From Planctomycetia bacterium TMED53 (GTDB lineage: Bacteria > Planctomycetota > UBA8108 > UBA1146): a stretch of DNA of 45,910 bases. The position numbers were made by a program, and so were the translations under genes. The DNA lies in the NCBI GenBank assembly GCA_002167285.1, contig NHDG01000061.1, positions 1-45,910 on the forward strand, given 5' to 3'. Position 1 is the first letter of the stretch. Each line of letters starts with the position of its first letter. The notes below the pieces were generated by a model that was not told the origin of the DNA, did no database searches, and saw nothing but the letters and a program-made list of their open reading frames with translations. Below, in pieces: positions 1,220 to 10,493 of the stretch.

Positions 1220-4200
1220 CTATTCACTAACCACTCTTCGCCAATGATCTGCGATCTTCTTTAGCTCCGTTTGATCGGTATCAGCGGTGGCTTTCTTAGC
1301 AAAGAAGTTTGCCTCCACAGACTGTATCTCAGTACGAAGCTTTTCGAGCAGATCAGGATCTGCAAAGTGGTGAGAAGTCTCTACCTTTCGCAAATACTGC
1401 AGCAAGCTGAGCCCACTCAAAGTGGTCGGAATTTGCCAAGGATCAACTTGCTCTTCTTTTTCGCGTGGAGATCTGAAAAAGAGAAGCCCAACGAAAAGCG
1501 CGGCGATTCCTGCAAAGATTTGCCACAGTTTCAATCCTTGCCTACTTCCAATCGCCAGTTCGGCGGTGGGAGCATCAAGCGTGACGATGTCAAAGTCGGT
1601 GTACCTCTTGCATACGCGCTCTGAACCAGAAGCCACTTCCGGGAATTCAAATTGAATTGGAGCTTCGACAGCACGATTGCGATCAAATCTGAGGGTCCAG
1701 GATCGTTCTGTTTTTGCAACGACGGGCGTAGAGACAGGACTCGAACTGAGGAGGTCCTCATGCATCTCGGTAATATTCAGGCCGTTGTCGAGGAATCCAT
1801 CCACATCTGCAAGTTGAAACCCTGAATCAGCAAAGGTTGTTTTCCAATCAGGGACGAGCTGATCTAACGGTGGAAGTACTCCCAGGCCATCTGCCAAAAT
1901 TTCCATCTCAAGAATCCCATTTTCAAGTTCGCGATCATCCAATGTGAGTTCAACTTTACCTGTGCCATGGGTTGGACGGGGAACGCTTTGAGATGAGGCG
2001 ACGATGGGAATGACAGGAGTTAAGACGGGGATACGAACAGAACCATTAGTGCCGTCTTCAAAATCCAGATCGATTCGAACCTCTGGGATCAGATCCACGG
2101 AGGCGTCTTTTGCTTTCATGATGACGTATGCATAAGACTTCTCCATCCAACCTGGGCGATTGAATGAGTAAGGTTTGAAATCGGGATCATTAAACTGAAT
2201 GGCAATGATTTCGAAATGCTCAGAGAAGGATTCTCGGATACGGCTCTCAAGATCGTCTTTGTAATCCATCGGTTGCTGAGCCAGGGGAGTGTAGACCTGA
2301 TTGTGCAAATAGATGTCGAACCCTTTGGATTCTCTCTCTAAAGCGTCGGTGTATCGTAGCGACAAGTGAAGCCCGAAGGGGTCAGTACCAACATCAGTGC
2401 TGCCGTCGACTTTGCAGTGGAATTCGACCTCTGCTTCTAAGTCTTCGTAAAGCATCGCCAGTCTACGTGTGCCCATGCCTGCAGGGTGATCTTGAATGAT
2501 GCGCATGGCGTGGCGGACAAATCGAGAGCGGAGATCTGCGGGGACGTTACCAATCGCCGATTCCACACCTGCTGAGAACTGTTCGAGGTGGGCAGACTTC
2601 TTTAGTTCGTCGACTCCATTGAAGATTTCCAGAATTCTCAGCACCTGGTCATTCTCAGGACGTGTGGTGACGGTCAGGAAACTTAACTCACTAGCGCCGA
2701 GTGCGGTGGTGAACCACTGAAGGTAAAGTTCGAGATTCACGGGTTGTTCCCCGGCTAGCATCTGCGTCATGTAAAGGTTGCTAGCTTCACGGTAGTTGGC
2801 GAACGCCGCTTCCCGTTGTGGGATGTACCTTTCCAAATCCGGATCCAGCTCTCGCCAGTACTCCGCCAAATCAAAATAGAGATTGGCACTGATGACTCGG
2901 GCTTGCCAGGAAGAAGGATCTTTACTGAAGGCGGATTCAAGAAGGGTTTGACCAAGGGCGTAACCACGTTCCACTTCTTGTTGAATCTCTTTCGTGGTTC
3001 TGCGGGTTCCCGTCGATTTTTGGACGTTGGGATCACGCCAGTTCCTTTGTAGCCGCTTCCACAAACTGCGAGAGATTTCGATGGAGATCTCCGGATCTAG
3101 GTTCGCCACAGGGCCAAAGATCTTTTCGATGTCTTCCACCCTGTAAACCTCTGCTCGACTGTGACTCATAGTGAATGCGCTGACGAGCCCAGGCCAATCG
3201 AGATCTTTAAGGCCTAAGTTTTTGAACTCGACGAGAACTTCCGCGAGTTGCCGTAGGCTTCTTCGCTGCTTAGAGCGAGTGAGAGGTGCGCTGGGTTGTC
3301 CGCCCCTCATTCCTGGGTAGTAAAAGACTCCCGACGAAGTCACAGTTCTTCTTTCAAAGAAGTTTTCATCGGGGCGGTTGGGGTCGAGATTTTGGGACCA
3401 GGATTTAATCAATGCTGCCGACAAGGTATCGGCATCCATCGATTCGTCAGTGCAGCTGAAGGTGACGAAAGCTAATGCATTTTTGGGGTTATCCTGAGTG
3501 GACAGCACTCGGATCGATTTTTCCGCCAGTGGTTGGCGTATCTCTGGAGAAACTTCAGTGAGCCAACTGGCAGTGGGGCAGATTCTTGAAAGATCAGCGA
3601 TGTTAATCCAGGCGTTTCTGCGACCGCTTTTGTTGAGGGTACGACCAAATTCCGTGACAAACACTCGCGAGATGTCGTCCACCAGTTCTTCACGAGTGCC
3701 TGTACCGTTTTCAGCAGCCATCAATGCAGTGGTCAGTTCATGAAGAGAAGTGAGTACCTTCTTCAAGTCAGCGGGAGAAACGTTTCTTTGTTTTGCCAGT
3801 TGGGCATGCTTGTGAAGCAATTCTAAAACCAGCAAACGGCCTGGATTTTGATCACCATTAAATGCACTGGTAAGCCAGAGTTGCTTCCATTCTTCCGGCA
3901 TCATGGGGAGGAGTTCGGCAAAGCCGGTCAGTGCCCGGCTTCGTTGTTTAGATTCGACCTCTGAATCTGGAAACAGGCCTAGCATCAACTCGGCGGCAAG
4001 AATCAAAGAGTTGCGTCGATTCAGCTCTGAGGTTTCAGGATCTTTCGCCACAGCGACGTGGTAGACCGCATGACGAATTTTCAGCTCCGCTGGGGCATCG
4101 CCAGTTTCGGGAAGTGGGTCCATGAAGCCAAGAGTTTCCTTGTGTAATCCCGCTTCGATCAGCATGTCGCAAGCAAGACCTCTTGCGATGGGGTCATCGC

Positions 4201-4900
4201 CACCGACAAAAGGCATACCTTCAGAGAGCCTTCGGACTAAATGGGAGGTGTTGCCTCGGGTCTGCGACTTTCTCAACAGCTGTCCCAGACTGGATAGAGT
4301 CTCTCTGTCCGGAGTTTGAGATCTCAGGGATAGCAACATCAATATATCGCTGGGGGTTACCGACTCATCGATTCTTGCAAGCTTTTGGATCACTTGATCG
4401 AAGCAGGATTCACAGTCTTCTTCTTTGGCGATCAACTCGGCTGCGCCTTGCCAATCTGATGCGGTGATGAGCTTCGTGAGGTAAGTGATTTTTTCAGCAA
4501 CATCGGCGTCTTCAGATGGCGAGGCTTGGGGGTCAAGGATCAAATTTTGTTTGGCTTGAATTACCTGGTCGACCGTTTTTCGGGGAAGATTCAATTGAGC
4601 GATGGCGTCTTTCAAAGAGCTCGCTTCATCTGAATTGGCTTCTTCTGTTGTTGGCGCGATGACCACACCATCTGTTCCTTCAGGAATCATCATCACTGGA
4701 TCCCCATCTTCGCCAATGATGAGATTAGGTGGAACAACGACGCCTGACCCGACGGTAATAGGGCCGATCACACCACGCACGGGTTGAGCCGGTTGCAGAC
4801 GGATTGCTCCACCACATTGGGCAAGGAGATCTGCGGAGATAAGGATCAAAAGGAGAGTCAATGTCGCGGTACAGATGGAAGAACGCAGGTTTGCCAACAT
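1220..4900 (-). CDS. Very large membrane-anchored periplasmic protein (BatD-like position)
   Basis: 1226 residues from the ATG at 4900. A TTG at 4942 is possible, but it would put 14 hydrophilic residues before the signal sequence. Residues 1-28 are a signal peptide ending in LLAQC, which might also be lipidated. A long, mostly helical region follows, with TPR-like or HEAT-like composition and a CESC (CxxC) pair near residues 163-166. The C-terminal part looks beta-rich. One transmembrane helix (about residues 1123-1142, LWQIFAGIAALFVGLLFF) leads to an acidic/basic cytoplasmic tail of about 84 residues. Large secreted proteins with one C-terminal helix often follow vWA genes in Bat operons (BatD), and this gene lies just downstream of one, but a strong terminator separates them. 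I find no recognisable BatD domain, so the function is unknown. It may be an interaction scaffold for the vWA proteins. Confidence 0.8.
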   Translation of the reverse strand: MLANLRSSICTATLTLLLILISADLLAQCGGAIRLQPAQPVRGVIGPITVGSGVVVPPNLIIGEDGDPVMMIPEGTDGVVIAPTTEEANSDEASSLKDAIAQLNLPRKTVDQVIQAKQNLILDPQASPSEDADVAEKITYLTKLITASDWQGAAELIAKEEDCESCFDQVIQKLARIDESVTPSDILMLLSLRSQTPDRETLSSLGQLLRKSQTRGNTSHLVRRLSEGMPFVGGDDPIARGLACDMLIEAGLHKETLGFMDPLPETGDAPAELKIRHAVYHVAVAKDPETSELNRRNSLILAAELMLGLFPDSEVESKQRSRALTGFAELLPMMPEEWKQLWLTSAFNGDQNPGRLLVLELLHKHAQLAKQRNVSPADLKKVLTSLHELTTALMAAENGTGTREELVDDISRVFVTEFGRTLNKSGRRNAWINIADLSRICPTASWLTEVSPEIRQPLAEKSIRVLSTQDNPKNALAFVTFSCTDESMDADTLSAALIKSWSQNLDPNRPDENFFERRTVTSSGVFYYPGMRGGQPSAPLTRSKQRRSLRQLAEVLVEFKNLGLKDLDWPGLVSAFTMSHSRAEVYRVEDIEKIFGPVANLDPEISIEISRSLWKRLQRNWRDPNVQKSTGTRRTTKEIQQEVERGYALGQTLLESAFSKDPSSWQARVISANLYFDLAEYWRELDPDLERYIPQREAAFANYREASNLYMTQMLAGEQPVNLELYLQWFTTALGASELSFLTVTTRPENDQVLRILEIFNGVDELKKSAHLEQFSAGVESAIGNVPADLRSRFVRHAMRIIQDHPAGMGTRRLAMLYEDLEAEVEFHCKVDGSTDVGTDPFGLHLSLRYTDALERESKGFDIYLHNQVYTPLAQQPMDYKDDLESRIRESFSEHFEIIAIQFNDPDFKPYSFNRPGWMEKSYAYVIMKAKDASVDLIPEVRIDLDFEDGTNGSVRIPVLTPVIPIVASSQSVPRPTHGTGKVELTLDDRELENGILEMEILADGLGVLPPLDQLVPDWKTTFADSGFQLADVDGFLDNGLNITEMHEDLLSSSPVSTPVVAKTERSWTLRFDRNRAVEAPIQFEFPEVASGSERVCKRYTDFDIVTLDAPTAELAIGSRQGLKLWQIFAGIAALFVGLLFFRSPREKEEQVDPWQIPTTLSGLSLLQYLRKVETSHHFADPDLLEKLRTEIQSVEANFFAKKATADTDQTELKKIADHWRRVVSE

Positions 4901-5006
4901 GGGAGTTCTTTCTGCAGGGTGTTGTGGGCTCTTTACCTTCAACAGAAGTTACGATTCTATGATCGCGAAGAGATTCTACAGCATCGCCGACGATCGTTAG
5001 GGATGC

Positions 5007-5043
5007 AACAAAAGACCCCTTCAACCACAAGGTTGAAGGGGTC
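5007..5043 (-). terminator. Rho-independent terminator of the MoxR/Bat operon
   Basis: A perfect 13-bp inverted repeat (5014-5026 with 5031-5043) has a four-base loop. Read on the minus strand it is followed by TTTTGTT. It lies 30 bases beyond the second stop (5074) of the candidate selenoprotein gene, but 150 bases beyond that gene's first TGA, so the spacing fits the longer reading better. It should end most transcripts of the operon before the large gene at 4900. Confidence 0.9.
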
Positions 5044-5073: not shown

Positions 5074-5784
5074 TCAGGAACCACCACCGGTGGCACGTGC
5101 TCTGGAAGCACCGACGTTGTTGGCTTTGCTACGACTGTCGCTGATATTGGGTTTACCGTTTTTGCCCTTCGAACCGAGGAGCCCTGAACCCTGTCAGCAA
5201 CCCCCTGGCAGAGGCAATGCTTTCAATTCTGCCAGATCCATACGCTCGAGCCAGATGACTGATTCGACATTCTTTTTGAGGTCAGCGGCATTGGCGAGGT
5301 TCTTCTTTTCCGCTTCTTCAGCGAGGAGTCGGAAGTGCTGGCGCGCCTTTTCTGCTTCTGGCTTCCAGATCTCCGGCTTGGCTCCTTCGAGGCGAAGCTT
5401 CCAAGTTGCAAAGTACTGGGCAGCCGCGATTTTAGCGCGGGCATCGTCGGCGAGATTCGGTTGATCCTTCGCCGCTTCATTCATGACTTCTTCCATCGCC
5501 GTGATGCCAGCCCAAGTATTGCCACTCATAAAGTCGGCGTGACTGGTTTGTAGACGCAACCAAAGAATCGCTTCCTGATCGTCATCGGGAACATCGGCGA
5601 GTGCTTGTTGGTAGAGCTCGACTGCTTTCTTCCACTCCTCTGCTTCAGCGCAGATTCGCGCTTCTTCAACGGTGGAAGAGAGACGGGTGCGGGCTTGTAG
5701 ATCCTGCCCAGGTCCGAACCACCAGATCGCGACGAGCACTGGAATCACGGCCCACAGTGTCCAAAGAGTTTTTCTTCGATTCAT
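5074..5784 (-). CDS. Candidate selenoprotein: membrane-anchored TPR protein (BatC-like) with in-frame TGA
   Basis: The ATG at 5784 follows a GGAAGGA ribosome-binding site. Residues 1-25 hold one membrane helix (LWTLWAVIPVLVAIWWFGPG) and the rest is helical and TPR-like (EEWKKAVELYQQAL). Its place after two vWA genes is that of the TPR protein BatC. A TGA at 5194-5196 follows ALPLPGGC. The frame then stays open for 39 codons (QGSGLLGSKGKNGKP... to ...RATGGGS) and ends at a second TGA, 5074-5076, just before the terminator. If TGA is read as Sec the protein has 236 residues with Gly-Cys-Sec at 195-197, similar to the C-terminal redox motif of mammalian thioredoxin reductase. A SECIS-like hairpin follows at the right distance. 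Without recoding the product is 196 residues, ending in Cys. The gene is certain; Sec decoding is inferred from the hairpin, the open frame and the SelW gene in the same window. Confidence 0.75.
5164..5182 (-). promoter_or_regulatory. Putative bacterial SECIS element for the TGA at 5194
   Basis: On the minus strand, GCTCCTCG-GTT-CGAAGGGC folds into four pairs (one G-U), a C-A mismatch, three pairs and a GTT loop. The loop starts 20 bases after the TGA. Known bacterial SECIS elements have a small apical loop with G in the first two positions, about 16-37 bases after the UGA, and this one meets both rules. It matches the SelW hairpin of this window in every stem and loop length. Confidence 0.65.
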
Positions 5785-5863: not shown

Positions 5864-6859
5864 CTAACGTGTGAGGGCTGGTGATTCTCTGCGTTGGCTC
5901 CTGTGGCCGAATTGAGCGAGTAATAGAGGAAGCAGGGCAAGAATACTGGTACCGATTCCCGCTCCGGTAACACAGAGATCTCTCAATAACGTCTGATCTT
6001 CGACACTGGGAACCGCCATCGCCAAGTTGCGGACAACTTCAGTTGGAAGATGTTTGGTGTTGGCATCGTGGTAGAGGCCTCCGAGTCGAACTGCCAATCG
6101 CTGTAAGGCTTGAATGTTTTGACGAGAAGTACGACCTGCAACGGTGGATCCTTTATGGGGATCTCCGACACCGAGAACGAGTACATCCGAAATAGACAGG
6201 GGGAGCCTCGCTGGTAATGATCCACCGACGGTGTCTCCATCGGAAACGACGATTAGAGTCGTACTACCCTTTGGCCAAGCCTTGGCAAAATCCAGGGCCT
6301 TTTCTACCCCTTGTTGGAGCTGGGTACTTCCCGCTTCAAAAGCAAACTCCATCGGCAGTCCATTGAGAACATTGTTGACGACATTGATGTCAAAAGACTC
6401 GAGGACCACAGGGAATGCATCGGTGTAGAAAGCGACCACGGATACCCGCGTACGAGACATGTCGAGGCGCTGGAATACCGCTTCGAGAACTTCCGAGGCA
6501 CGGGTACCACGACGAATGTTTCTCTCCGGCCCCGAATCTTCCAGATACATGCTGGGTGAGACGTCGAGGGCGATCAGCAGATGTTGGGAAGGTTCCTGCG
6601 TCGGATCGATTTCGGGTGGTTTCGATTCGAGGTGAGCCAGCACCCAGAGTGAGAATCCCAGCATCAAAGCCGCAATAGTTCGCAGAAAGGGGACTAAAGC
6701 GGTCCAGCTCCGGGGGCCCTCGGGCCCAAAGGTGAGGCTTTGCGTTTCGCGGATGCGCCGCCGATGAAGCCACTCGCCAAGGCCTGCCACCAACGCGCAC
6801 AACAGGCCAACGATGACAGCCTGATGGATCAGCGCTTCAATCGGATCGACTTCTACCAT
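5864..6859 (-). CDS. BatB-like membrane protein with von Willebrand factor A domain
   Basis: 331 residues from the ATG at 6859, which follows GGAGG with eight-base spacing and overlaps the stop of the previous gene. Two N-terminal membrane helices (about residues 10-30 and 57-76) are followed by a vWA domain. Its metal-binding DxSxS motif is intact (DVSPS, residues 99-103), as is the later VVSDGDT segment. A third hydrophobic segment lies near the C-terminus (SILALLPLLLAQF). The vWA domain should face the periplasm. BatB-type proteins act with MoxR ATPases and BatA; in Bacteroides and Leptospira they were linked to stress or oxygen tolerance, but the molecular role is unknown. Confidence 0.9.
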   Translation of the reverse strand: MVEVDPIEALIHQAVIVGLLCALVAGLGEWLHRRRIRETQSLTFGPEGPRSWTALVPFLRTIAALMLGFSLWVLAHLESKPPEIDPTQEPSQHLLIALDVSPSMYLEDSGPERNIRRGTRASEVLEAVFQRLDMSRTRVSVVAFYTDAFPVVLESFDINVVNNVLNGLPMEFAFEAGSTQLQQGVEKALDFAKAWPKGSTTLIVVSDGDTVGGSLPARLPLSISDVLVLGVGDPHKGSTVAGRTSRQNIQALQRLAVRLGGLYHDANTKHLPTEVVRNLAMAVPSVEDQTLLRDLCVTGAGIGTSILALLPLLLAQFGHRSQRRESPALTR

Positions 6860-7770
6860 GGCGTGATCCTCCAACGCAGGAAGAGAACCAGGTGGAGCCC
6901 AAGTAGTCCGAGACCACTCCAGGCAAAGGGAGAGAAGTCCTCGATGGGTCGTGCGCCGGCAGGTTTCAGTTTTGCGGGCTTCATTTCATCGATGTGGGCA
7001 AAGACTCTCTCCAGTCCTGCAGTATCAGAAACGGCAAAGACTTCACCCTGCGTTTGCGACACCACTTCATAGAGTTGACTGGGTGCTGCCCCATCACCAA
7101 TGAAGATCGCATACAGAGCCACGTTGTATTCAGAGAGCTCTTGCCCGATTTGTCGTGCAGCTCCACCGCCTAGATCAGAAGAGAATCCATCGGAAACGAG
7201 AACGATGAGTCGGTCTCCTTCTTCTACCTGCGAGAGCGTGGCAAGGCACGATTCGAGAGCCAAGCCGATTCGAGTAGATCCCATGTGGGGGGGAAGTCTG
7301 CGTGGGTCGATAAATGGGGCAGCTAAAGAGATTGCCGAGAGATCGCGGGTGAGGGGAGTCCAGCGAATAGTTTCTCCACCAAAGATCGTCAAGCCGCACG
7401 CATCTCCTTCGCGCATTTTGCAGAAGTACTGAATACTTTCTACCGCAGCATCGCTGCGCAGTTTTCCGTCGGACATATCGACGCCCATTGAGCCAGACAC
7501 ATCGAGGCAGATTTCGATGTTGGAGATTTCGCGCTTCTTTTCTGGCTCGCCCATGAACTGGGGGCCAGCCATCACCGCGATGCCAATAAAGAGCAATAGG
7601 TGCGGTAAGGCTGAACTGAACCACAGAAACTTGCCGAGAAAGAAGCGTTTCGAATGCTCCCGATGATCGACAGGAACAGCGATTCGCGGACCTTCGCGGA
7701 AGGCTTCCCAGAGCAGCAAGAATACAGGTACTAGCCAGAAGACCAGCACCCATGGGTGCATGAAACTCAC
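6853..7770 (-). CDS. BatA-like membrane protein with von Willebrand factor A domain
   Basis: 305 residues. The GTG start at 7770 overlaps the TGA of the gene before it and has AGGTGG about seven bases upstream. An ATG three codons later is the alternative. Two N-terminal helices (about residues 5-21 and 50-69) precede a vWA domain with the MIDAS motif DVSGS (residues 90-94), GSTRIG and VSDGFSSD, so metal binding looks intact. A C-terminal helix (LGLLGLHLVLFLRW) gives the usual BatA layout. It is translationally coupled to both neighbours, so it is expected in fixed ratio with the DUF4381-like and BatB-like proteins. Confidence 0.92.
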   Translation of the reverse strand: MSFMHPWVLVFWLVPVFLLLWEAFREGPRIAVPVDHREHSKRFFLGKFLWFSSALPHLLLFIGIAVMAGPQFMGEPEKKREISNIEICLDVSGSMGVDMSDGKLRSDAAVESIQYFCKMREGDACGLTIFGGETIRWTPLTRDLSAISLAAPFIDPRRLPPHMGSTRIGLALESCLATLSQVEEGDRLIVLVSDGFSSDLGGGAARQIGQELSEYNVALYAIFIGDGAAPSQLYEVVSQTQGEVFAVSDTAGLERVFAHIDEMKPAKLKPAGARPIEDFSPFAWSGLGLLGLHLVLFLRWRITPW

Positions 7771-8621
7771 TCTGGCACCACCTTTTCAGCCGCCATGCTC
7801 TTGTAAGGTTGCAGCAGTTTTTCAACCTGTTCAGTATTGGCATCGGTTTCTTTGCCAGAGTGGAGCCAGCGTTCGATGGTGACGATCAACTCGCCAGCGA
7901 CTTCATGCTTGCGCATCGCTTGCAAAGCTTCCGCGTGACGAAAGGAACCCAGGTTTAGATCGTCGCGCCAAAAAGCGAGGAGTAATCTTTCCAGAGCTGC
8001 TTTGCCTTCAGAATCGAGTTCTCCCGCCAAAGCCTGATCAACAAATGGTCTTAATTTATCAGCGATGGTGAGCACGACTTCGACCACTGGTTCAGGAGGT
8101 GGTGGCCGCATCCAGCGAAGAACTCCAAGAATGATCAATGGCAGAACTAACCAAAATCCAACGACAGCCCAAAGAACCCATGCTGGAAAATCGATCACGG
8201 GAGAGAGGGTTCCCGGTAGATTCGCGAGATTCCCTTCGTGATCCGAGCCGAGTAATGAATCGGCATGGACGATCATCGGCGGCAGTTCCGCAGGACGATT
8301 TTCTCCATAGCGAAAAAAGATGGAGAGATCGTGATCACCGGGAAGCAGCGCTAGCCAGCGAATGTCATAGTTGGCCTGATTACTATCCAAAGTTTCCATA
8401 GTGACGTTGGCGATGCGCACGAGAACAGGAGAGTCTTCCGGAATCGGCGCGACTTCCAAGGCTTCACCTTGCCATTTGAAATGAAAGTGTCCTTCAATGC
8501 CGACACTGCTATTCGACAAAGCCTCATTCGAAATAGTTTCCTGTGCCGGCAGCTGTGTCGCCAAGTAGAGCGGCAAGAAACCAATGACAAGAGAGAGAGT
8601 CCTCAAAAGATTCAAGATCAT
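7767..8621 (-). CDS. Signal-peptide, single-helix membrane protein with DUF4381-like layout
   Basis: 284 residues. It has a signal peptide (about 1-26, cut near LPAQ), an extracytoplasmic domain of about 115 residues, a transmembrane helix (145-169) followed by a proline-rich MRPPPPEP linker, and a helical cytoplasmic domain. That C-terminal part resembles DUF4381 proteins, which lie between DUF58 and BatA genes in many such operons. I assign it by position and layout rather than by a diagnostic motif. The ATG at 8621 overlaps the stop of the DUF58 gene. It may link cytoplasmic MoxR/DUF58 to the periplasmic vWA domains (inference). Confidence 0.75.
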   Translation of the reverse strand: MILNLLRTLSLVIGFLPLYLATQLPAQETISNEALSNSSVGIEGHFHFKWQGEALEVAPIPEDSPVLVRIANVTMETLDSNQANYDIRWLALLPGDHDLSIFFRYGENRPAELPPMIVHADSLLGSDHEGNLANLPGTLSPVIDFPAWVLWAVVGFWLVLPLIILGVLRWMRPPPPEPVVEVVLTIADKLRPFVDQALAGELDSEGKAALERLLLAFWRDDLNLGSFRHAEALQAMRKHEVAGELIVTIERWLHSGKETDANTEQVEKLLQPYKSMAAEKVVPE

Positions 8622-9475
8622 CCTTGTCCCCTGTCACTGAGAAAACGCCGCACCGGTGAGATGAAATCCTGATCTGTTTTCAGCAGTAGATGATCGATGC
8701 CGCCCTCAGCCAACTCTCCCCTGCGGCCCTTTTCTGGATCGATACCCCATTGGGTTCGAGAGCTGCCAAGGAATGATTGCCCAGTCTCCGCCTCGGTCCC
8801 ACGGTAGTAACCGCCGCGAGGCAAACCACCTTCAGCAGGATCTTGAAACTCGATGACTGCGACATCGTGACCCTGTGAAAGGCGGCGGCAGGCATCGATC
8901 GCATCTGGATCGTGGAGGTCGGAGAGGATAAACACGACAGAGCGTTGCAAGGTGGTAGCCCTGACCCAATCGAGGGCCTCTCCGAGGCAGGTTTTCTCAT
9001 CGATGTTTGGCTGCCGAAGAGCTTCGATCGCTTGTTGCAGTGCTCCACGGGAGAGGCTCGTTTGCGATGGTAACTGTCTTGTGCCTCCGCCGATGAGGCG
9101 GGTCGGGCTCATCCTTCTCTGAGCGACCAATCCGATAGCCGCCGCAATCCAGGTCGCTTGGGAGTATTTCGAGAGAGGGCCGGAGGTCGTCACCATCGAT
9201 CCTGAAGTATCGACGACGATCTGAACCGGAACCCTCTTTAAGGTGTCGTATTCCTTGACGAAGGGAGTGCCGGTACGAGCGCTGATCTTCCAATCCATCG
9301 AGGCGATCGGATCCCCAGGTTCATACGGGCGCGACTGGGCGTATTCCAAACCACTACCGACAAAGATGCTTTCGTCGGCACCGTGGGCCAGATCGTTGGC
9401 GAGTTTGCGAACGACCATCTCGAATTCGTGGTGGCCCAACGCCTCCGGGGGAGGCAGGGAGACTCCGGTTCCCAT
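8618..9475 (-). CDS. DUF58 / vWA-like protein of the MoxR operon
   Basis: 285 residues from the ATG at 9475, which has GGGGAAG upstream and lies 13 bases after the MoxR stop. The DUF58 signature is clear: YEPGDPIASMDWKISAR at about residues 51-67, then FVKEY. It continues into a vWA-like fold with VDTSGSM (MIDAS DTSGS, residues 89-93) and FILSDLHDPDA. It has no membrane helix, so it is cytoplasmic. DUF58 proteins are the standard partner of MoxR ATPases and may be their direct substrate or adaptor. Confidence 0.93.
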   Translation of the reverse strand: MGTGVSLPPPEALGHHEFEMVVRKLANDLAHGADESIFVGSGLEYAQSRPYEPGDPIASMDWKISARTGTPFVKEYDTLKRVPVQIVVDTSGSMVTTSGPLSKYSQATWIAAAIGLVAQRRMSPTRLIGGGTRQLPSQTSLSRGALQQAIEALRQPNIDEKTCLGEALDWVRATTLQRSVVFILSDLHDPDAIDACRRLSQGHDVAVIEFQDPAEGGLPRGGYYRGTEAETGQSFLGSSRTQWGIDPEKGRRGELAEGGIDHLLLKTDQDFISPVRRFLSDRGQG

Positions 9476-9488
9476 TCCGAGCTTCCCC

Positions 9489-10493
9489 TCAGGCCAGTTG
9501 GTCCAGGATTTCAGCGAGGACGTCTTCGTCGCGACGCCCGCGGGCGACCGCTTCATAAGATAGACGAATACGGTGCAGCAAAATGTCTTCTGCCAAGGCA
9601 AAGATGTCTTCAGGAACGACGTAATCCCGACCGTGGAGGAAAGCACGTGCTCTCGAAGCAGTGACCAACGAGATTCCTGCACGGGGTGATCCGCCCAATT
9701 CGATGTCAGGGTGGTTTCTTGTTTTATTGACCAGATCGACACAGTGACGCACGAAGACGTCACTGACATGAACCTCAAGAACCTTTTCCATTGCGGTGGT
9801 CAGGTCGGCCACTCCCATCGGTGCGCTCTTGTCGATGGCATCGAAAGCAGACATCGGCATCGCTCCGCCATCTTCAGATCGACGCAGTTTCAAGTTTAGG
9901 GCTCGCTTCAGTACTTCTGATTCGTCATCTGCCTCCAAGTATGTTAGGCGGTGGCGCATCAGAAAGCGGTCCAGCTGTGCTTCAGGAAGTTCAAAGGTAC
10001 CCGCCTGTTCGACTGGGTTCTGGGTGGCGATCACTAAGAAAGGGCTCGGTAGTGAATACGTGGTTTCACCGATGGTGACCTTTCGTTCCTGCATCGCTTC
10101 GAGGAGTGCGGATTGTACCTTAGGGGAAGCACGGTTGATCTCATCGGCGAGAAGTAAATTGGTGAAGATGGGCCCCTTATGTGTACGGAATTCACCACTG
10201 TCTTTGTCGAGGATTTCAGAGCCGACGATGTCAGAGGGAAGCAGATCGATGGTGAACTGGACTCTGCCGAATTGAAGTTCAATAGAATGAGCTAGTGACT
10301 GTACCAGCAAAGTTTTCGCTGTTCCGGGAACCCCTTCCAGTAGTAAGTGCCCGCCAGTCAGTAGTGAAATCAGTCCGCGTTCGAGGACGATGTCTTGCCC
10401 AACTACAGTTTTGCGCACGTGATCGCGAACTTTCTCCGCGAATGGTGAAGGAGCAGTTTGGGTGTTTTCGGATGCTGACAAGATGATGTCCAT
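9489..10493 (-). CDS. moxR: MoxR family AAA+ ATPase
   Basis: 334 residues, near the family's usual length. Walker A is GVPGTAKT (residues 54-61), Walker B LLLADEIN (113-120), sensor 1 ATQNP (156-160), and the conserved AQLDRF segment follows. A C-terminal lid domain ends the protein. MoxR proteins are cytoplasmic AAA+ machines that remodel or activate partner proteins, often those with vWA domains; here five genes for likely partners follow. It is the first gene of the minus-strand operon ending at the terminator near 5040. The promoter should lie upstream of 10493, although only 33 bases separate it from the RarD-like gene, which is read in the same direction. Confidence 0.95.
   Translation of the reverse strand: MDIILSASENTQTAPSPFAEKVRDHVRKTVVGQDIVLERGLISLLTGGHLLLEGVPGTAKTLLVQSLAHSIELQFGRVQFTIDLLPSDIVGSEILDKDSGEFRTHKGPIFTNLLLADEINRASPKVQSALLEAMQERKVTIGETTYSLPSPFLVIATQNPVEQAGTFELPEAQLDRFLMRHRLTYLEADDESEVLKRALNLKLRRSEDGGAMPMSAFDAIDKSAPMGVADLTTAMEKVLEVHVSDVFVRHCVDLVNKTRNHPDIELGGSPRAGISLVTASRARAFLHGRDYVVPEDIFALAEDILLHRIRLSYEAVARGRRDEDVLAEILDQLA

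Follow-up and report, generated by a model that had tools for sequence, protein, structure and literature searches.

The window, that is, the whole 45,910-nt stretch of DNA analysed here, carries a run of genes on its minus strand in the order MoxR, DUF58, a 284-aa gene, BatA, BatB, a predicted selenoprotein and a 1240-aa protein. In a conventional reading, the predicted selenoprotein gene is a 196-codon open reading frame, 5784..5194 (-), that ends in Leu-Pro-Leu-Pro-Gly-Gly-Cys before a TGA. When this TGA is read as a residue, 39 further codons with the sequence QGSGLLGSKGKNGKPNISDSRSKANNVGASRARATGGGS follow before a second TGA. Selenoprotein genes of bacteria often enter annotations as truncated open reading frames, and the standard table 11 reading of the genes described here removes the likely active site. 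The features of the locus are as follows.

9489..10493 (-), MoxR AAA+ ATPase (Pfam AAA_3 and AAA_lid_2)
8618..9778 (-), DUF58 protein (Pfam DUF58); its true start probably lies downstream of the listed one
6853..7770 (-), BatA-like vWA membrane protein (Pfam VWA_2 and VWA; NCBIfam BatA E 2e-14, below cut-off)
5864..6874 (-), BatB-like vWA membrane protein directly upstream of the predicted selenoprotein gene (Pfam VWA_2; weak NCBIfam BatB match, below cut-off)
5074..5784 (-), predicted selenoprotein gene; ATG start at 5784, 236 residues, Sec at position 197, open with TGA as a residue
5716..5778 (-), predicted membrane helix, residues 3-23 (AlphaFold2 helix; hydrophobic stretch after Arg-Arg-Lys; topology inferred)
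5194..5196 (-), in-frame TGA, predicted Sec197; TGA in 11/11 aligned genomes of TMED53's taxonomic family
5164..5182 (-), SECIS-type hairpin with the apical-loop GGUU at 5175-5172 (frozen codons in 11 genomes, family-wide GGU-loop hairpins, covariation)
5077..5193 (-), C-terminal tail of 39 codons, rich in Gly/Ser/Lys/Arg/Asn, with low pN/pS and predicted to be disordered
5074..5076 (-), true stop codon TGA; the stop of relatives is TGA, TAA or TAG, and they diverge past it
5015..5042 (-), inverted repeat resembling an intrinsic terminator, with a T run after it, read directly from the sequence
1220..4942 (-), 1240-aa membrane protein, with a relative directly downstream in 71/72 loci

The initial annotation had pointed to a TGA right after Gly-Gly-Cys, 39 open codons and a second TGA near a terminator, and all of these are confirmed, with the terminator-like repeat beginning 31 nt past the second TGA. 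The context of the recoded codon is Gly-Gly-Cys-Sec-Gln-Gly, which places Cys and Sec side by side. On comparative sequence evidence, the TGA at 5196-5194 (-) is very probably decoded as selenocysteine. A genome-wide reassignment of TGA is ruled out; many genes of the stretch end in plain TGA, and the genetic code is therefore not reassigned. Decoding of the second TGA (5074-5076) as another Sec is ruled out by TAA or TAG in relatives and by the divergence beyond it.

The tie to the Bat operon that was first proposed is common, as the Bat/MoxR group lies upstream in 54 of the 61 loci with enough flank, but it is not obligatory. A relative of the 1240-aa protein is the closer partner, since it immediately follows the selenoprotein gene, also at loci without the Bat operon. 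The gene stands outside the Bat operon, with the partner kept, in sister genera of TMED53's taxonomic family and in some Verrucomicrobiota; the loci with examined flank that show this arrangement are L058, L053, L054, L069, L072, L075, L080 and L103. The Bat tie is thus real but looser than that to the 1240-aa membrane protein. Neither Pfam nor NCBIfam matches the latter. In its core, a helical solenoid precedes a beta-rich region, and a fold search with this core returned no significant match. A conserved Cys that could make this neighbour a redox partner was sought and none was found.

Conservation of the internal codon and the tail

A search of 59 related genomes recovered full-length relatives from TMED53's genus and family as well as from two families of the phylum that are more distant. 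All of the close relatives have a TGA at or adjoining the Sec site, and the frame beyond it is open and similar. Their tails end at a stop after Gly-Ser or Gly-Asn, from which point the sequences diverge. Consistent with the expectation that homologues would conserve the tail, its pN/pS within the genus is 0.04-0.11, comparable to that of the gene body, which indicates purifying selection upstream and downstream of the internal TGA alike. In contrast, the 16 codons past the second TGA have a pN/pS of ∼1.3 within the genus; this difference shows that the tail is translated and under selection as protein. No copy of the gene was recovered from G007, G010 or G012, all members of TMED53's taxonomic family. 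A selA match is absent from G007 and G012 and present in G010.

Alignment-based scans reveal a wider family with many more loci in Planctomycetota and Verrucomicrobiota, in genomes that are mostly assemblies from metagenomes. Among deduplicated loci, which share ancestry and hence are not independent events, the internal codon is TGA in 72, TGC or TGT (Cys) in 15, and TAA or TAG in none. The initial annotation had predicted that Sec would be kept as TGA or replaced by Cys in one column and had named TAA or TAG at the internal site of homologues as the case against it. The exchange was found and no such stop occurs among the 72 Sec-type loci; the column itself differs, lying one residue on in TMED53's clade. 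The true terminus of the 72 Sec-type genes is divided into 36 TGA, 18 TAA and 18 TAG. The typical Sec form reads PLPSQ-U-QGCGSGRGRG...DARGASSGPPPDGSGS, a Sec-x-x-Cys arrangement, and an example of the Cys form reads PSQ-C-KGCCSGECQC. Some relatives have two internal TGA codons, in the form U-QGT-U or U-SGNGT-U (L070, L074, L089, L090, L161, L162 and L163). Two loci, L057 and L106, are labelled Bacillota and Rhodobiaceae, with sequences that are closely planctomycete- or verrucomicrobial-like; these taxonomic labels are probably wrong. The Sec form also occurs in a cultured relative, Roseibacillus persicicus KCTC 12988 (locus L077).

Downstream hairpin and selenocysteine machinery

A SECIS-like hairpin had been placed 20 bases past the TGA. 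The hairpin is borne out; the distance is slightly off, as the stem begins 11 nt past the TGA and 21 nt separate the apical loop from the T of that codon. The energy of the TMED53 hairpin is unremarkable (122 of 500 shuffles are equally stable), and its weight comes from the comparison across the family and not from its own stability. A scan of the whole stretch against Rfam gave no match. Defined as a stem of 4 or more bp that carries a GGUC or GGUU loop, a hairpin 3' of the TGA is present in 67/72 Sec forms, compared with 0/15 Cys forms, with loop positions mostly at +21, +24 or +30. The same rule is satisfied by 0.5% of mononucleotide shuffles; synonymous recoding, which keeps the peptide and draws codons from the same tails, yields 7.3 of 72 on average and never more than 16. 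The five misses of the strict rule are TMED53's own genus, in which the stem is bulged. Double-Sec forms contain a single GGU-loop hairpin, separated by 24 nt from the second TGA; its distance to the first is 36 or 42 nt.

The conservation of the hairpin anticipated by the initial annotation extends to covariation in all five pairs. Among 39 distinct hairpins, changes occur on both sides in each of the five inner pairs, and 97.4% of cells pair. The covariation score for these hairpins, which were picked by pairing so that structure is somewhat favoured, is 0.72; shuffles score 0.18, and slid versions do not exceed 0.16. Within TMED53's taxonomic family, 11 genomes have the same codons CTC CTC GGT TCG (+5 to +8) and GGC (+10), while many later tail codons vary synonymously, as expected of an RNA element within a reading frame. 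The main-clade GRGRG peptide is the translation of the hairpin sequence GGC CGC GGT CGC GGC, and GRGRG is absent from the Cys forms examined.

The genes that the selenoprotein reading calls for are all present in the TMED53 genome, namely selA, selB, selD and a tRNA-Sec (selC) with a UCA anticodon. The TMED53 selD has an in-frame TGA of its own, 3' of which a hairpin with a GGUCG loop occurs; this gene is an independent indication that the genome uses Sec. In TMED53, tRNA-Sec, selD and selA lie close together (contig C8, 19228-21927), and selB is on contig C96. A tally combined by hand, with duplicates removed and a Fisher test applied, finds selA above the curated cut-off in 56/59 Sec-form genomes versus 8/25 non-Sec-form genomes. 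Two of the three Sec-form genomes that fall short of the cut-off show selA fragments.

These observations bear on two other ways of reading the first TGA. Were it an ordinary stop, the following frame would be untranslated or a remnant and the hairpin a 3' regulatory element, which would agree with the plain TGA stops of many genes in the stretch and with a TMED53 hairpin that is not unusually stable. Such a stop is hardly credible given the purifying selection on the tail, the complete lack of TAA or TAG in 72 loci, the Cys codons that others have at the family position and the Cys forms that have no hairpin. Read-through with another residue, by a suppressor tRNA or a programmed event that yields a minor extended form, would conserve the tail as well. 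Other stop codons would then be expected at the site, whereas the covarying SECIS-type hairpin, the exchange of Sec and Cys and the tracking with selA are specific to Sec, and this reading is very improbable. Selenocysteine insertion, as first proposed, is supported by the conservation of the TGA and the tail, the Cys forms, the hairpin covariation and the sel genes.

Protein architecture, Sec positions and candidate redox role

The initial annotation described a membrane-anchored TPR protein. The AlphaFold2 model, built on 73 sequences, upholds the membrane helix and a helical body, a solenoid predicted with high confidence to about residue 190; the similarity to TPR sequences is weak in the TMED53 protein and below Pfam cut-offs. 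Pfam matches in the wider family are mainly of the TPR type. From residue 198 on, the tail has a pLDDT < 50 and is predicted to be disordered. The Arg-Arg-Lys ahead of the helix suggests an N-in, C-out topology, which would place Sec197 outside the cytoplasm. A fold search with the TMED53 protein gave no significant match and mostly returned generic TPR or helical-repeat proteins, including YfgM (E 0.09, not significant). YfgM is a periplasmic TPR protein that is membrane-anchored and extracytoplasmic; we know of no Sec/Cys tail in it.

By comparison among genomes, translation through the TGA, conservation of the hairpin, exchange of Sec and Cys, and presence of the Sec machinery are established; we infer the topology, redox chemistry, partners and physiological role. 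In the proposed mechanism, SelB and tRNA-Sec(UCA) would insert selenocysteine at the TGA at 5196-5194 under the guidance of the mRNA hairpin just downstream, and translation would stop 39 codons later at the second TGA. One N-terminal helix would hold the product in the inner membrane, with the alpha-helical TPR-like domain outside the cytoplasm. The flexible Gly/Ser/Lys/Arg tail would carry at its base a selenol beside a thiol, as Cys-Sec here and as Sec-x-x-Cys in most relatives. On a flexible arm, a selenol that adjoins a thiol or is three residues away from it suggests that the pair most likely cycles between a reduced state and a selenenylsulfide. The pair could act as a reductase arm or a redox switch on partners, which would be the 1240-aa membrane protein and usually also the Bat/MoxR group. 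We give the role of the Sec tail as a redox arm about an even chance.

An alternative role for a genuine selenoprotein is that the Sec/Cys tail binds metals, such as copper, zinc or mercury, instead of catalyzing redox reactions. The clustered Cys in several Cys forms (CKCKGCCNGVC and CKGCCSGECQC) resemble metal sites, but one Sec and usually one Cys are few for such a site in the Sec forms, and metal binding is rather doubtful. A separate question is how many times Sec was acquired. In TMED53's clade Cys occupies Pro+3 and Sec occupies Pro+4; in the main clade, Pro+3 is itself the Sec position. Alignment and tree thus rule out an identical TGA column in all relatives. In a tree that was built from the part before the motif only and that is unrooted with some long branches, TMED53's clade groups with the Cys forms L097, L164, L168 and L169 (support 99/84), all of which have Cys at Pro+3. 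The hairpin loops also differ, with GGUUC in TMED53's clade and GGUC in the main clade. The simplest reading of the grouping with Cys forms, the shift of Sec and the different loops is that Sec was probably gained in TMED53's clade by an event separate from that in the main clade. A single Sec-containing ancestor of both clades, with Sec merely shifted by one residue, would account for the shared family, tail and use of a downstream hairpin and is compatible with an unrooted tree of the body alone; set against the same three differences, it is somewhat improbable.

With independent gain as the preferred reading, the Sec, Cys and double-Sec forms, together with what appears to be a second origin of Sec at the adjoining residue, constitute a natural experiment on the gain of Sec and on the way in which an RNA hairpin shapes the peptide that overlaps it. 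The full proposal is that a widespread, undescribed selenoprotein family of two phyla acquired Sec on two or more occasions, at adjacent sites in a disordered tail outside the cytoplasm, that GRGRG exists because it encodes the SECIS, and that the protein is a selenium redox arm of the Bat/MoxR AAA+ system. Taken as a whole, it is speculative, and we regard it as possible rather than probable.

Comparison with known systems

A 2026 review lists 119 prokaryotic selenoprotein families and subfamilies, and no membrane-anchored helical-repeat protein of Bat operons is among these entries (PMC13188914 Table 1); the present family is missing from that inventory despite spanning two phyla. No NCBIfam model (June 2026) matches the TMED53 protein, and the models of known selenoproteins match none of 73 members, which show weak matches to unrelated models only. 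No description was found in the literature on selenoproteins in connection with Planctomycetes, Verrucomicrobia, TPR or Bat, where an earlier mention is possible, for example in supplements. These proteins apparently represent an undescribed family of membrane-anchored selenoproteins, widespread in two bacterial phyla. The family brings selenium into the Bat/MoxR system and points to a redox site that can be tested.

Like BatC and other TPR proteins of Bat operons in Bacteroides and Leptospira, the protein is membrane-linked and TPR-like and is encoded beside MoxR, DUF58, BatA and BatB. Unlike the BatC-type proteins, it has a Sec and a conserved tail and often occurs without a Bat operon; the likeness to BatC derives from predicted fold and gene context. 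The link between Bat systems and oxidative stress that was mentioned in the initial annotation is not established and is contested by Leptospira biflexa, in which deletion of all bat genes produced no oxidative phenotype (PMC3557215).

Eukaryotic selenoprotein S (SelS, VIMP) and selenoprotein K are likewise single-pass membrane proteins with Sec in a flexible C-terminal tail. A selenenylsulfide between Cys and Sec has been proposed for SelS, which is named for its interaction with the AAA+ ATPase VCP (PMC3628699). There is no evidence of homology, and the likeness is one of style only; the SECIS of SelS and selenoprotein K lies in the 3' UTR, and the SelS tail is cytosolic, whereas that of the TMED53 protein is probably extracytoplasmic. 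The TMED53 protein shares an arm with vicinal Cys and Sec with mammalian thioredoxin reductase, in which a C-terminal Gly-Cys-Sec-Gly places the pair on a flexible arm. In contrast to thioredoxin reductase, it has neither a flavoprotein domain nor homology to that enzyme, and its Sec is 40 residues from the end.

Most characterised prokaryotic selenoproteins have a thioredoxin-like fold (PMC13188914), and the family differs from them in that its Sec is in a disordered tail. In common with known prokaryotic selenoproteins, it combines an in-frame UGA and a downstream hairpin with Cys-containing relatives, CU or UxxC motifs, and dependence on SelA, SelB, tRNA-Sec and SelD.
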